Virus record (IMG/VR): IMGVR_UViG_3300021956_000057
Coordinates: 1-30,424 of that record
From: a virus
Direction: 5' to 3' (one strand)
DNA: 30,424 nucleotides
Translations under genes and position numbers: made by a program
In this document: piece after piece, positions 1,199-9,845 of the stretch
How the letters are laid out: each line of letters starts with the position of its first letter
How positions within the stretch are numbered: position 1 is the first letter of the stretch
The notes under the pieces: generated by a model
Database searches by the model: none
Told to the model about the DNA's origin: nothing
What the model saw: only the letters and a program-made list of their open reading frames with translations

Positions 1199-1702
1199 AT
1201 GGATCCAAATGAACTTAGACAACGATTAGAACAAGTAGCCGAACTTAAAGACCGCAAACCAATTAAAACGGCTAGTCACAGACCCGCGATTGAATATATT
1301 ACAGAAGTAGATGAAGACGGCGAGGAATATCAAATTGCAGTTGAAATCAAAGATAATCCAACGCTAGGTTATGAATTGGTCAAAGTTAAAGACCAACACA
1401 AATTATGTGAATTGGGCTGTGGCGATATAGTTGCAAATCAAATAACCGAACGCAGATTTGTTCGAACACCACAACCACATTGGCGTACTCGTTGCAAAAA
1501 CTGTGACCACTATGTTAGTCCAGATGGCAAAGGTTTTATCAAAGGTAGTCATGCTGTGCAAAATGCTTTTGGTAGATATTTTAATTCAACTAAAACCATT
1601 CCAAAAGATGAACCGTTACCTCCAGGAACAGTACATGTTACCGAATACAGTGATCATACAGAAATAGTCACAAATACACAGATAATCAAGCGATACAAAT
1701 AA
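1199..1702 (+). CDS. Hypothetical protein with Cys pairs, possible zinc binding
   Basis: This is a 167-aa protein I cannot name. Its middle has CELGC (C-x3-C) followed about 30 residues later by RCKNCDHYVSPDGKGF (C-x2-C), a plausible four-cysteine zinc site. The N-terminus is a charged helix (MDPNELRQRLEQVAELKDRK) and the C-terminus is beta-rich and polar (HVTEYSDHTEIVTNTQIIKRYK). There is no clear Shine-Dalgarno site before the ATG; instead the TTAAATA motif lies four bases upstream, which suggests leaderless translation or a different start. The stop codon overlaps the AATAAATA motif that precedes the RNA element at 1710. Similar Cys-pair proteins of unknown function are common in marine T4-like phages (general recollection). 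Confidence 0.7.
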   Translation: MDPNELRQRLEQVAELKDRKPIKTASHRPAIEYITEVDEDGEEYQIAVEIKDNPTLGYELVKVKDQHKLCELGCGDIVANQITERRFVRTPQPHWRTRCKNCDHYVSPDGKGFIKGSHAVQNAFGRYFNSTKTIPKDEPLPPGTVHVTEYSDHTEIVTNTQIIKRYK

Positions 1703-1705
1703 ATA
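1698..1705 (+). promoter_or_regulatory. TAAATA-type putative late promoter of RNA element
   Basis: AATAAATA overlaps the TAA stop of the 1199 gene. Its end lies 5 bases before the left arm of the long RNA stem at 1710, so a transcript starting about 6 nt after the motif would begin at the base of that stem. Confidence 0.4.
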
Positions 1706-1709
1706 AAAA

Positions 1710-1817
1710 TGTTAGGCAGGTATGCTAGTACAAGGCTGGCATGATTGATGGCATATCAATCTCCGTTATAAAGGGTTACAGCCATTACCCTATTCTCTGA
1801 TAAAATCCTGCCTAACA
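1710..1817 (+). ncRNA. Candidate structured small RNA, multi-helix junction
   Basis: A perfect 11-bp closing stem pairs 1710-1720 (TGTTAGGCAGG) with 1807-1817 (CCTGCCTAACA). Inside it are three hairpins. P2 is ATGCTAG/CTGGCAT (1722-1728 with 1736-1742, one G-U pair, 7-nt loop). P3 is GATTGAT/ATCAATC (1743-1749 with 1755-1761, loop GGCAT), which abuts P2 directly. P4 is AGGGT/ACCCT (1772-1776 with 1787-1791, loop containing GCC). The GGC in the P3 loop could kiss the GCC in the P4 loop. A promoter-like motif precedes it and an intrinsic terminator follows at 1829-1854, giving a transcript of about 145 nt. It is not a tRNA and I recognise no known RNA family. The function is unknown. Confidence 0.6.
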
Positions 1818-1828
1818 CCTTTTTCTCC

Positions 1829-1854
1829 AAACCGCTTTTTCAGCGGTTTTTTTT
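1829..1854 (+). terminator. Rho-independent terminator
   Basis: AAACCGCT pairs with AGCGGTTT (8 bp) around a TTTTC loop, and a run of eight T ends at 1854. It ends the transcript carrying the structured RNA, and a new promoter-like motif begins 8 bases later. Confidence 0.9.
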
Positions 1855-1861
1855 GTGTTAA

Positions 1862-1869
1862 ACTAAATA
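1862..1869 (+). promoter_or_regulatory. TAAATA-type putative late promoter
   Basis: ACTAAATA lies just after the terminator and 17 bases before the ATG at 1887. The ACTAAATACT form recurs at 23803. There is no recognisable -35 box. Confidence 0.5.
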
Positions 1870-1886
1870 CTGTATAGGAGAATAAA

Positions 1887-2630
1887 ATGGCACAAAACAC
1901 CAAAACAATAGCAAACCCGTCGGATTATTTTGTTTCTACGGGAGCGCAATCATTAACAACATTAACAACAATAACTACTAATAACAACTTAACAACAGTT
2001 AATGTTATCACATCTGAAGATGGCGACAAACATCAACAGGAGTCCTTCGGACATCTTTTGGCTAGCCCAGAGGGCTTGGCTCCGCAAGGGGTCGTAGACC
2101 TAAATGTAAGTGCGCCCGCCAAATGGAAGTATGCAAAAGTTGATTTGTTTGATAATTCAACAGAAAAGCAAATTAAAAAGGGCATACGCAAACTACGCCT
2201 TAGTTTGAGCTTTTTAACATTTACCAATAGCAATTATCAATATCTTGGCGCACTAATGAATAGTCGCATTCGTGATGTCAAGCGAGGATTTGATATGGAT
2301 GATCCATATGAAAAAGCGCACTATGATTTACTCATTCAGACCTATACAGAATTAAAAGAATTGGGCTATGAAAATGTACGCCTAAGCAAATGCTATGAAA
2401 GAGCAGTTAGAGGCAAAGGTAAAACTATTTTTGGATTAAGTGTAATTTTAGTAGAACTGCCACAAGACGGACAATATCTTTGTTTGTTATTAGACGGAAC
2501 AGATTTAACAAGAATTGATTTATCCGGCAAACAATTAACTGACAAACAAAGAGCAGGCAACTGCATTAGTTCTGGACAGTATGGATCTAATACAATTAAA
2601 AGAAAGACACGCAATGACTTCTTCAAATAA
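1887..2630 (+). CDS. Hypothetical protein, 247 aa
   Basis: The start is set by AGGAG at 1876-1880, 6 bases before the ATG. The first 50 residues are Thr/Asn-rich and probably disordered (TTLTTITTNNNLTTVN). Residues about 75-190 are a mixed, charged alpha/beta region with helices such as KQIKKGIRKLRLSLSFL and EKAHYDLLIQTYTELKELG. The C-terminal 60 residues have short beta segments (TIFGLSVILVELPQDG, YLCLLLDGTDLTRI). I recognise no family or catalytic motif. It is the first gene of a rightward unit starting at the ACTAAATA motif. The frame of the next gene overlaps its last codons. Confidence 0.7.
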   Translation: MAQNTKTIANPSDYFVSTGAQSLTTLTTITTNNNLTTVNVITSEDGDKHQQESFGHLLASPEGLAPQGVVDLNVSAPAKWKYAKVDLFDNSTEKQIKKGIRKLRLSLSFLTFTNSNYQYLGALMNSRIRDVKRGFDMDDPYEKAHYDLLIQTYTELKELGYENVRLSKCYERAVRGKGKTIFGLSVILVELPQDGQYLCLLLDGTDLTRIDLSGKQLTDKQRAGNCISSGQYGSNTIKRKTRNDFFK

Positions 2631-2796: not shown

Positions 2797-3835
2797 GATA
2801 ATATTCACAGTTCTTAATTAATCGCTCATCTGATAGATTTAGTTCGAGAGCTAATGCTCCGTAATGAATTGCTTGTTCTTTCATACCTAGGTGATAAGCA
2901 GATAATGCGGCAAGATCATAGGGTTTCCATGACCACGGATCATTAGTAGATGTAAACACATATTCTCTTTGAGTAATAGTCAAACACTGAGTTGCGGCAT
3001 AATAGCATTCATGCCACTGCTGTGTTTCAAAACAGGCTTGAGCTAGATCTAACCAAGTATCACGAATATATCTGCTTGTGTCTACTGCCAATCTCAAATG
3101 CTTGAGTGCTTGTTCTTGATTACCTAAATTCAAATAACAACGACCCATATGACGCAAAGCAAATGAGCGTTCATGATGCCATGTAGCACCAGGTAATGCT
3201 AGATATCTAGTCCACTCTTTAATGGCCAATAACCACTGCTTGGTATAAAAGTATTCACGGCCCAAATACCAACTGTCTCTGTGACTGTATGGATCTTCCT
3301 TGATGGCAGATTCTAGCATGGGCAAATACTGTCCACGGCTTTTTGACAAATCAGGATGGTGTTCTGTTAGGATATCTTCGGTAATTGCCCATACTTCTCG
3401 TGTGCGTGGATCGGGCTCAATCATTTCATGTATTAAATGCCGCCAAGTATAACCTGTTCTTTTATGCACTTTAGTACAGTTATATATTTCGCCTTGATTG
3501 TCGAACCTGTACTGAAGTCTAGTAATGTCCGATTTCCAATTGCGTTCTATAGATTCACGCCAACCCGGAGTCATTACTTCATCCAAATCTAGTGCAACGC
3601 ACACATCTATGTCTTTTGGAACAAGCCCTAGTGCTATGTTACGAGCTGTATCAAAACGCCAAGGACTGACAGTTATCCTATACACTTGTATACCTAGACT
3701 TAGTGCTAGTTCAGCAGTACCATCTGTTGATCCTGTATCAGCCAGTACAATGCAATCTGCATCCTTGCATGATTCATAAAAGCGTTCTACAAAATGTCGT
3801 TCATTAAGGCTGATGGCATACACGCATATTTTCAT
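2786..3835 (-). CDS. Family 2-like glycosyltransferase with TPR-like C-terminus
   Basis: This 349-aa protein is the only convincing leftward gene. Residues 1-100 are a GT-A glycosyltransferase core: ISLNERHFVERFYES, the nucleotide-sugar motif ADTGSTDGT (32-40), and a DLDEV metal-binding DxD-type motif (83-87). Residues about 165-349 form helical pairs resembling TPR repeats (DSWYLGREYFYTKQW, ALRHMGRCYLNLGNQEQALKHLRLAV, TWLDLAQACFETQQW). It probably moves a sugar from a nucleotide sugar to a host or virion surface acceptor in the cytoplasm; the substrate cannot be read from the sequence. On the minus strand GAGGAA lies upstream of the start, and a TAAATA motif faces leftward at 3875-3869. Its orientation and convergent overlap with the 2614 gene suggest a separately acquired cargo gene. 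Confidence 0.85.
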   Translation of the reverse strand: MKICVYAISLNERHFVERFYESCKDADCIVLADTGSTDGTAELALSLGIQVYRITVSPWRFDTARNIALGLVPKDIDVCVALDLDEVMTPGWRESIERNWKSDITRLQYRFDNQGEIYNCTKVHKRTGYTWRHLIHEMIEPDPRTREVWAITEDILTEHHPDLSKSRGQYLPMLESAIKEDPYSHRDSWYLGREYFYTKQWLLAIKEWTRYLALPGATWHHERSFALRHMGRCYLNLGNQEQALKHLRLAVDTSRYIRDTWLDLAQACFETQQWHECYYAATQCLTITQREYVFTSTNDPWSWKPYDLAALSAYHLGMKEQAIHYGALALELNLSDERLIKNCEYYLNL

Positions 3836-7878: not shown

Positions 7879-9399
7879 ATGGCAATTATTCAAACCGTAG
7901 AAGAACAACTGGCCCGCTTAGGTAGTTACAATCGCATGTATAACTACAACAGAAACAATTGGAAATATCTGTTGGTAAGTTATCTAGGTGGCGATGATTA
8001 CCGTAGAGCAGGCTTGTTAACTAGATATCAATTAGAAACAGATGCGGAATATCAAGCCCGCCTAAATGCAACACCACTAGAGAACCATTGCAAAGCTGTT
8101 GTCAATGTTTACAACAGTTTCTTATTCCGCAACTGTCCAGAACGCCTATATGGCAGCATGGAAGGCATGCCAGAAATAGAAGACTTTTGCTATGATGCTG
8201 ACTTAGAAGGACGCAGTTTAGATTCATTCATGAAGGATGTTGCAACCTGGGCTAGTGTATTTGGACATTGCTGGGTGCTTGTAACCAAACCTAATTTAGG
8301 TGCTGTAACTCGTGCAGAAGAAATGGCCATGGGTATTCGTCCTTATGTGTCATTGATTACTCCTATGAACATGCTAGACTGGCAGTACTATAGAGAACCA
8401 AGTGGACGCTATTGTCTCAAGCATCTCAAGTATGTAGAAGAAGTCAACGGCTCTGTTCAGACTATTAAAGAATGGTACGAAGACCGTATTGAAACTTGGG
8501 TAGTAGACTTTGACAAGCGTGAAGTGCATGACCATCAAATAGAAACAAATGGCTTGGGTAAGATACCTGCTGTTTGTGCTTACAATAGCCGTAGTAATGT
8601 TCGCGGTATGGGTATACCAGACTTGTCCGACATTGCGCACTTACAGCAATTCATCTACAACTTGACCAGCGAAGTAGAACAAACACAACGCATGGACGCA
8701 CATCCAAGCCTAGTTAAGACTCCAGAAACACAAGCAGGCACAGGTGCTGGATCAATTATTAGTATTCCAGAAAACTTGGATCCTGGCTTGAAGCCATATC
8801 TATTAGAATACAATGGCGCAAGTGTTGACTCACTGTACAAAGCCATCGAACACGCTACAAGTGCAATTGATCACTTGGCCAACATTGGTAGCATCCGTGC
8901 AACAACCAGCACAGTTATGTCAGGCATTGCTATGGAAACAGAGTTTCAATTGCTCAATGCCAAACTAAGCGAAAAAGCTGACAACCTAGAGCAAGCAGAA
9001 GAAGGCATTTGGCGCTTGTTTGCTGAATACATGGGTTATGTATGGGACGGTGAGATTGACTACGAAGACAGCTTCTCAATCCAAGACGAGAAGAATGAAT
9101 ACATTAAATTACAGACTGCTAAACAGGCCGCAACAGGTCCTGAAGCAATGGCTGTAATTGATCAAATGCTTATTAACCTAATTACTGATGATACAGAGTT
9201 AGAAGGCAAGGTGGTAGGACCAATAGATGCATCAGGTGAAATTATGCCTATAGATGAATTTACCTATGGCAGCGATTACCTTGAAGAACACCCAAATGAA
9301 GCTACGGGAGCGAATCCGCCAGCACCCTCTAATGTCCCACCAGACAATAGAGTCCTTAACTCTAGAAGAGTTTACTTTCAAACAGGAAATAAACAATGA
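7879..9399 (+). CDS. Portal protein
   Basis: This is a 506-aa protein immediately after TerL; GGAG at 7867-7870 precedes the ATG. The N-terminal helices (NNWKYLLVSYLGGDDYRRAG), KAVVNVYNSFLFRN, the clip/stem region VTKPNLG...RPYVSLITPMNMLDW, and the long C-terminal helices (ATSAIDHLANIGS, NAKLSEKADNLEQAEEGIW) agree with phage portal proteins that form the dodecameric DNA gate at one capsid vertex. Length, position and the QFIYNLTSEVEQTQRMDAHPSL stretch support the call. The C-terminal 50 residues are Pro/Asn-rich and probably flexible. Its stop overlaps the start of the Dps-like gene, which is therefore made with portal. Confidence 0.9.
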   Translation: MAIIQTVEEQLARLGSYNRMYNYNRNNWKYLLVSYLGGDDYRRAGLLTRYQLETDAEYQARLNATPLENHCKAVVNVYNSFLFRNCPERLYGSMEGMPEIEDFCYDADLEGRSLDSFMKDVATWASVFGHCWVLVTKPNLGAVTRAEEMAMGIRPYVSLITPMNMLDWQYYREPSGRYCLKHLKYVEEVNGSVQTIKEWYEDRIETWVVDFDKREVHDHQIETNGLGKIPAVCAYNSRSNVRGMGIPDLSDIAHLQQFIYNLTSEVEQTQRMDAHPSLVKTPETQAGTGAGSIISIPENLDPGLKPYLLEYNGASVDSLYKAIEHATSAIDHLANIGSIRATTSTVMSGIAMETEFQLLNAKLSEKADNLEQAEEGIWRLFAEYMGYVWDGEIDYEDSFSIQDEKNEYIKLQTAKQAATGPEAMAVIDQMLINLITDDTELEGKVVGPIDASGEIMPIDEFTYGSDYLEEHPNEATGANPPAPSNVPPDNRVLNSRRVYFQTGNKQ

Positions 9400-9845
9400 A
9401 TCCGTTAATTGAATTAATGCTAATGGCATTTGCAAATAATTTTACATTTTATTTAAAAAGCCACAATTTCCATTGGACTGTAATGGGTCCAGACTTTCCA
9501 CAGTACCACAAACTGTTGGAAGAAATATACAATGATGCTCAAGAAAGCATCGATGATTATGCTGAACAATTACGCAGACTAGGGGCTTTCCCTCAAGGCG
9601 ATTACCGAGACATAGTCAATAACAGTCAATTAGTTGACCCACCTGAAACTGTTACGGATCCAACACAAATGTTCGCAAATCTATTAAGTGATTTAGACAT
9701 CATTGTACTTAATTTGCAAGACAGCTTTGATATGGCAACTGAAAGCCGTGAATATGGCTTACAAAACTTTCTAGCAGATCGCATTGACGCACATCGTAAA
9801 CAACAATGGATGTTAAATGCAATCATGGGACAACAAAATGCCTGA
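9396..9845 (+). CDS. Dps-like ferritin-fold protein
   Basis: This 149-aa protein has the Dps signature SHNFHWTVMGPDFPQYHKLLEEIYNDAQESIDDYAEQLRRLG written here in parts: NFHWTVMGP (24-32), YHKLLEE (37-43), DDYAEQLRRLG (53-63). The four ferroxidase ligands are present with E. coli spacing: H26, H38 (+12), D53 (+15), E57 (+4), equivalent to H51, H63, D78 and E82. The C-terminal helices (MFANLLSDLDIIVLNLQDSFDMATE... RIDAHRKQQWMLNAIMG) complete a four-helix bundle. Cellular Dps forms 12-mers that oxidise iron and coat DNA. Here it overlaps the portal stop by 4 bp and sits among head genes, so it is likely made late and could be packaged, protect DNA from oxidative damage, or have been adapted as a structural protein. 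A Lys-rich DNA-binding tail is not evident. Confidence 0.85.
   Translation: MNPLIELMLMAFANNFTFYLKSHNFHWTVMGPDFPQYHKLLEEIYNDAQESIDDYAEQLRRLGAFPQGDYRDIVNNSQLVDPPETVTDPTQMFANLLSDLDIIVLNLQDSFDMATESREYGLQNFLADRIDAHRKQQWMLNAIMGQQNA

Follow-up and report, generated by a model that had tools for sequence, protein, structure and literature searches.

The window, as we call the whole 30,424-nucleotide stretch of phage DNA analyzed here, carries close to its start a zinc-ribbon gene, a structured RNA element and the beginning of a further transcript, X. The contig of a close relative (L001) spans the two ends of the window (30424/1), which is therefore probably an almost complete genome, either circular or permuted. 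No replication gene was recognized among the window proteins scanned. Positions 9396-9845, between the portal and scaffold genes, encode a Dps/ferritin-like protein (Pfam Ferritin, E = 8e-23) of a family that PHROGs labels as DNA-binding. The features of the locus are:

1199-1702 (+): zinc-ribbon protein gene, 167 amino acids, with C-x3-C ... C-x2-C and an HWRT motif, directly upstream of the RNA
1699-1705 (+): late-type promoter word ATAAATA of the RNA; predicted first base G1711
1710-1720 (+): closing stem P1, 5' strand, pairing with 1807-1817; covariation
1722-1742 (+): hairpin P2, variable in sequence, kept in position
1743-1761 (+): hairpin P3; covariation
1772-1791 (+): hairpin P4, with the conserved loop UACAGCCAUU at 1777-1786; the stem swaps, the loop stays
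1781-1786 (+): predicted start-codon seed GCCAUU within the P4 loop
1791-1806 (+): single-stranded linker, co-varying with the X leader
1791-1798 (+): predicted leader seed UAUUCUCU in the linker; 1791 can also close P4
1807-1817 (+): closing stem P1, 3' strand, pairing with 1710-1720; fold and covariation
1829-1854 (+): intrinsic terminator, hairpin 1829-1849 plus T-run
1863-1869 (+): late-type promoter word CTAAATA of X; predicted start near 1875
1877-1891 (+): predicted target site, from permutation tests and duplex energy
1877-1884 (+): target part GGAGAAUA, predicted to pair with the linker seed at 1791-1798
1886-1891 (+): target part AAUGGC, predicted to pair with the loop seed at 1781-1786
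1887-2630 (+): X product of the window phage, a 247-amino acid protein without relatives

The RNA element and its homologues

The initial annotation had proposed 1710-1854 as a candidate for an undescribed structured RNA provided with a promoter motif and a terminator, and its sequence and coordinates were correct on re-checking. The perfect 11-bp closing stem it described is present (1710-1720 with 1807-1817), as are the three inner hairpins, which it gave as 7, 7 and 5 bp and which fold as 8, 8 and 5 bp when G-U pairs are counted; two of them do abut, P2 and P3 meeting at 1742/1743. Likewise, a promoter word precedes the element (1699-1705), a terminator hairpin (1829-1849) with a T-run to 1854 follows, and no gene lies inside. 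The predicted fold of 1710-1854 reaches -49.1 kcal/mol (z = -5.8), with 0 of 200 shuffled sequences equally good, and z is -5.4 for the RNA without its terminator. No Rfam family matches the window RNA, searches at the gathering threshold and at E-values up to 10 giving nothing convincing; a match to Trp_leader (E = 0.004) was rejected, as it falls short of the gathering score and what pairs clearly in it is a generic terminator. The covariance model of the Polynucleobacter-1 RNA (RF01718) has no match in the window. ARAGORN recognized neither a tRNA nor a tmRNA in the RNA, in agreement with the earlier view that it is no tRNA, tmRNA or known riboswitch, and a literature search found no description of it.

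A scan with the closing stem found L001, in which the flanks are about 84-86% identical and the RNA is nearly identical, and L005, whose stem letters are changed on both sides, was picked up by scanning with the upstream protein. Sequence patterns built from both then yielded further homologues. With a profile of the upstream protein, 36 loci were located in IMG/VR, and an RNA of the same kind follows the protein gene in all 35 whose contig continues (that of L134 ends too early to be read). Two other contigs, L002 and L003, were rejected as homologues, being probably chance matches to the closing stem; in L003 (755-860), an unrelated contig, a 9-bp stem with the window's closing-stem letters lies beside a tRNA-like sequence, probably by chance. 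The 28 distinct RNA homologues, all in phage contigs, share one plan: when folded individually, nearly all form P1, usually two variable hairpins and then P4, whose loop mostly has ten or twelve bases, typically UACAGCCAUU, with the core GCCAU. The two most diverged RNAs, L132 and L133, to which the covariance model gave no match, were assigned by promoter, position and fold, and L133 has a different internal fold. In the HTVC pelagiphages and DSL-LC06, the nearest phages by terminase, the RNA model found no match in the stretches searched.

Pairs are preserved across these loci. A covariance-model alignment covered 25 distinct members and, having been fitted to the model, favors structure. 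Its cells pair at 95.4%, both sides have changed in 17 of 23 pairs, and the cells altered on both sides number 102, compared with 24 in shuffles; shifting the partner by one to three columns brings pairing down to 42-50%. A plain MAFFT alignment of 12 members has both-side changes in 14 of the 23 pairs. P2 is absent from the covariance model and was left out of the pair counts. In P4, the stem swaps in all four counted pairs and the loop is kept. On this comparative evidence, the candidate is a real, strongly conserved structured RNA.

One possible feature of the RNA in the initial annotation, a GGC-GCC loop-loop contact, is not conserved: in the predicted folds, an unpaired GGC between P1 and P4 is found in 5 of 28 homologues, and a GGC of any kind there in 19 of 28. 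The contact bears on the suggestion of a packaging RNA like that of phi29, which is likewise phage-made and built as a closing helix with several hairpins. The late-type promoter and the hairpin-bearing closing helix would suit such a role, and in the window a kissing contact could form between UGGC of P3 and GCCA of P4. However, the complementary loops by which RNAs of the phi29 type form rings are not conserved here, and the window phage has ordinary, conventional terminase genes. The packaging suggestion gained no support and appears exceedingly improbable.

Predicted transcription and the zinc-ribbon gene

All 28 homologues carry the word [AC]TAAATA, then exactly 5 nt and a G. If this G is the start site, as predicted, the spacing is that of phage T4 late promoters, in which a TATAAATA-like word stands at a fixed short distance from the start site; both word and spacing are fixed here. 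The G belongs to the first invariant P1 pair (25 of 25), whereas of the two P1 pairs drawn further out one is lost in 7 sequences and the other in 3, so that conserved pairing starts at the base predicted to be transcribed first. A terminator hairpin with a T-run follows in 27 homologues, the candidate in L125 being too weak to count. In the window, the stop codon of the zinc-ribbon gene overlaps the promoter word, and this overlap is in different frames in different phages; protein coding therefore does not explain the conservation of the word. Homologues, covariation, fixed promoter spacing and terminators together back the original proposal of a new RNA with signals of its own, and the RNA is likely transcribed independently from its own promoter as a molecule of about 140 nt.

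Could the element instead belong to the zinc-ribbon mRNA as a structured 3' untranslated region with a cis effect on its stability or expression? It always lies directly behind the zinc-ribbon gene, and read-through transcription would include it. However, the fixed distance between the promoter word and the first conserved base pair in all 28 homologues, and the retention of that word though the overlapping stop codon varies in frame, make such a role very unlikely.

In 12 of 13 genomes of the group, TAAATA occurs about 1.5- to 4-fold less often than expected, the window having 18 compared with 45 expected, and the depleted words in the window often lie upstream of genes. A gp55-like late sigma factor was not recognized among the window proteins scanned, and gp55 relatives diverge strongly; an unrecognized sigma factor or outside help would be needed to read the TAAATA promoters of the window.

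Proteins of the zinc-ribbon family are 100-171 amino acids long and share four invariant cysteines as well as an HW(R/K)T motif. AlphaFold2 models the protein with a confident core, and neither Pfam, PHROGs, PDB sequences nor PDB folds gave a match of known function; its structural relatives are only unnamed proteins from uncultured phages, and structure comparison suggested no function. The family was found neither in the 84,980 bacterial and archaeal genomes searched nor in INPHARED phages. From phage to phage the neighboring genes and their orientation vary and the zinc-ribbon/RNA pair stays together. As the pair also belongs to the core of this phage lineage, its linkage, though consistent by comparison, is alone no proof of joint function, and to name the protein as a partner of the RNA is a guess from that linkage. 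Under such a partnership, a ribonucleoprotein or RNA-chaperone pair, the P4 loop would bind the protein and pairing with X would be secondary or absent. The RNA following the gene in every readable locus, the pair holding together through changes of neighbors and orientation, and the loop that stays while stems swap would all fit. Yet linkage is to be expected anyway in a pair core to one lineage, comparisons with Pfam, PHROGs and PDB give no indication of RNA binding by the protein, and the co-variation between linker and X leader described below would go unexplained. We therefore regard this explanation as unlikely.

Predicted pairing with the leader of X

In the window, the X leader region (1863-1891) is complementary to the linker of the RNA and its start codon to GCCAUU; both duplexes together are predicted at -15.3 kcal/mol. 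When the RNA tail was compared with all gene starts in 13 genomes, a swap test showed no preference for the own genome. The RNA as antisense to phage gene starts in general was thus rejected, only the test at locus X being positive. Among starts behind late-type promoters, the X locus (TAAATA, a short leader and ATGGC) occurs in 13 of 13 genomes, and promoter plus ATGGC identifies one X locus per complete genome; where there were two candidates, the one with C after TAAATA was chosen.

Across 16 phages, the summed pairing of linkers with their own leaders is 259.5, compared with 209.4 (sd 10.1) for permuted partners, none of 50,000 permutations being as good; the X locus and this focused test were defined after the leaders were seen, and permuting partners does not fully remove relatedness. 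By duplex energy, 12 of 50,000 permutations are as good. The pairing test gives 104 of 50,000 without the two divergent linkers (G009 and G015), and with regions cut by rule, not by hand, the result is 1 of 50,000. Shuffled linkers were never as good against X leaders (0 of 2,000), and within its own genome X ranks high among gene starts (Fisher p = 4.5e-6).

Linker and leader co-vary in G002 (UCUCUACAU/AUGUAGAGG), G007 (UCUCUGUA/UACAGAGG) and G011 (UCUCUACA/UGUAGAGA). For the divergent linkers of G009 (UGCUUAUUACA/UGUAAUAGGCA) and G015 (UUCCUAUC/GAUAGGGA), the leader of the same phage is divergent too and matches over 11 and 8 bp, respectively. In G012, the leader was located by the promoter pattern alone and then found to pair with the linker over 8 bp. 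Linker pairing is weak in G001, G003 and G018, and in G018 the loop itself is changed (UACUGCCAUUG), matching its own start (CAAUGGCAG). As the start context is ACAUGGC or UUGGC in several phages, loop pairing is only 4-5 bp in these. Hairpins with CTAAATA and an AUGGC loop (G004, L119) were rejected as a second target, lying just upstream of an ORF that resembles tail-region genes of the window. In G004 (L141/L142) and at L173:1499-1560, a perfect 11-bp hairpin carrying AUGGC in the loop region comes after CTAAATA, and the gene downstream resembles tail-region genes.

We propose, with a probability of about 0.7, that the phage small RNA is an antisense regulator covering the ribosome-binding site and start codon of X. 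Of the roles first suggested, this one gained direct comparative support, as linker and target leader co-vary. The RNA would be made from its late-type promoter and ended by the intrinsic terminator, and its folded body would present two recognition elements, the GCCAUU of the P4 loop and the linker just 3' of P4. Their base-pairing would cover the start codon of X and its 5' end, where ribosomes bind, and translation of X would most likely be blocked, or timed. Both the duplex with the X leader, predicted from complementarity, and repression as its effect are what we infer.

A suggested host-mimic role has gained no such support. An RNA acting on the host might be antisense to host mRNA starts, through GCCAUU and the anti-Shine-Dalgarno letters UCUCC, or to host ribosomal RNA. 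The loop and the C-rich single strands are indeed complementary to a generic ribosome-binding site, and ACAGCCAU is complementary to what we take to be a universal stretch of 16S rRNA, though an 8-letter match easily arises by chance. However, the linkers of G009 and G015 lose the generic anti-Shine-Dalgarno letters and match their own X leaders, and the 16S match is lost in the loop variants UACUGCCAUU and UAACGCCAUU, which makes action on the host decidedly unlikely.

The X slot and known regulatory RNAs

X as a single conserved protein was rejected, its products being unrelated between phages: in G001, G004, G005 and G018 the leader precedes other, unrelated proteins. In most other genomes a short ORF follows the leader, and then several hundred bases of conserved noncoding sequence. 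In L110, the closest relative of the window, positions 3082-3214 (+) within the X transcript match the Rfam family Polynucleobacter-1 (RF01718) with 73 bits, and only its X region matches that family. This RNA is listed for Burkholderiales from fresh water or estuary (PMC2864571). By this match, the Polynucleobacter-1 family also belongs to phages, and together with terminase relatives in Dishui Lake it points to a freshwater origin of the phage lineage. A second large conserved noncoding region, of about 400 nt, lies behind the X leader in G002, G003, G007, G008, G011 and L133, and 18 of its 72 predicted pairs show paired changes. This region, seen at L147:15930-16362 (-), L140:7090-7500 (-), L149:9905-10318 (-), L153:10650-11079 (-), L137:11320-11758 (-) and L133:1671-2120 (+), has no Rfam match in the sources searched. 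Other noncoding types occupy the slot in G006/L114/L116/G012 and in G009/L112. In G001 (L113) and L117, a three-codon ORF (ATG GCT GAG TAA), resembling a minimal leader peptide, lies at the X start ahead of a larger gene.

The c4 RNA is a structured phage RNA that uses two separate unpaired elements to pair with a phage transcript in the vicinity of its ribosome-binding site, and it represses an antirepressor via translational coupling to a short ORF. Similarly, the loop and the linker here are two unpaired elements whose complement lies in the X leader, in the ribosome-binding region of that phage transcript, a likeness in complementarity only, and in several phages the target is a short leader ORF. 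However, the fold is different, the RNA has its own late-type promoter and terminator, the site lies in a separate, often distant transcript, a zinc-ribbon gene is linked, and the regulated product varies between phages. The covariance model of the c4 antisense RNA of phages P1 and P7 (RF01695; Citron and Schuster 1990, as cited in PMC2864571) gave no match at the gathering score or at E-values up to 10. By analogy, the proposed working principle resembles that of c4, while the RNA is no member of the c4 family. As in the kissing antisense RNAs of plasmids, a hairpin loop would first contact the translation start region. Those RNAs, CopA and RNAI, are encoded opposite their targets and are fully complementary to them, whereas the window RNA is encoded away from its target and would pair over two short stretches. 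The Polynucleobacter-1 RNA shares the phage group, lying within the X transcript of L110, but it stands on the target side and is distinct from the antisense RNA.

Both the RNA and the zinc-ribbon protein represent new families, seen here in phages only, and the predicted target is unusually well backed by comparison for a phage RNA, as the linker follows the 5' end of the target in evolution. We tentatively raise the possibility of a three-part module, consisting of a zinc-ribbon RNA-binding protein, a structured antisense RNA and a matched 5' leader, that might silence any cargo located downstream of this leader, unrelated proteins and large structured RNAs alike, and release it at a set time of infection. 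If the proposal is correct, these uncultured phages would control an exchangeable late cargo slot via an antisense RNA dedicated to the task, and the slot's large conserved noncoding regions would become a defined object of study.
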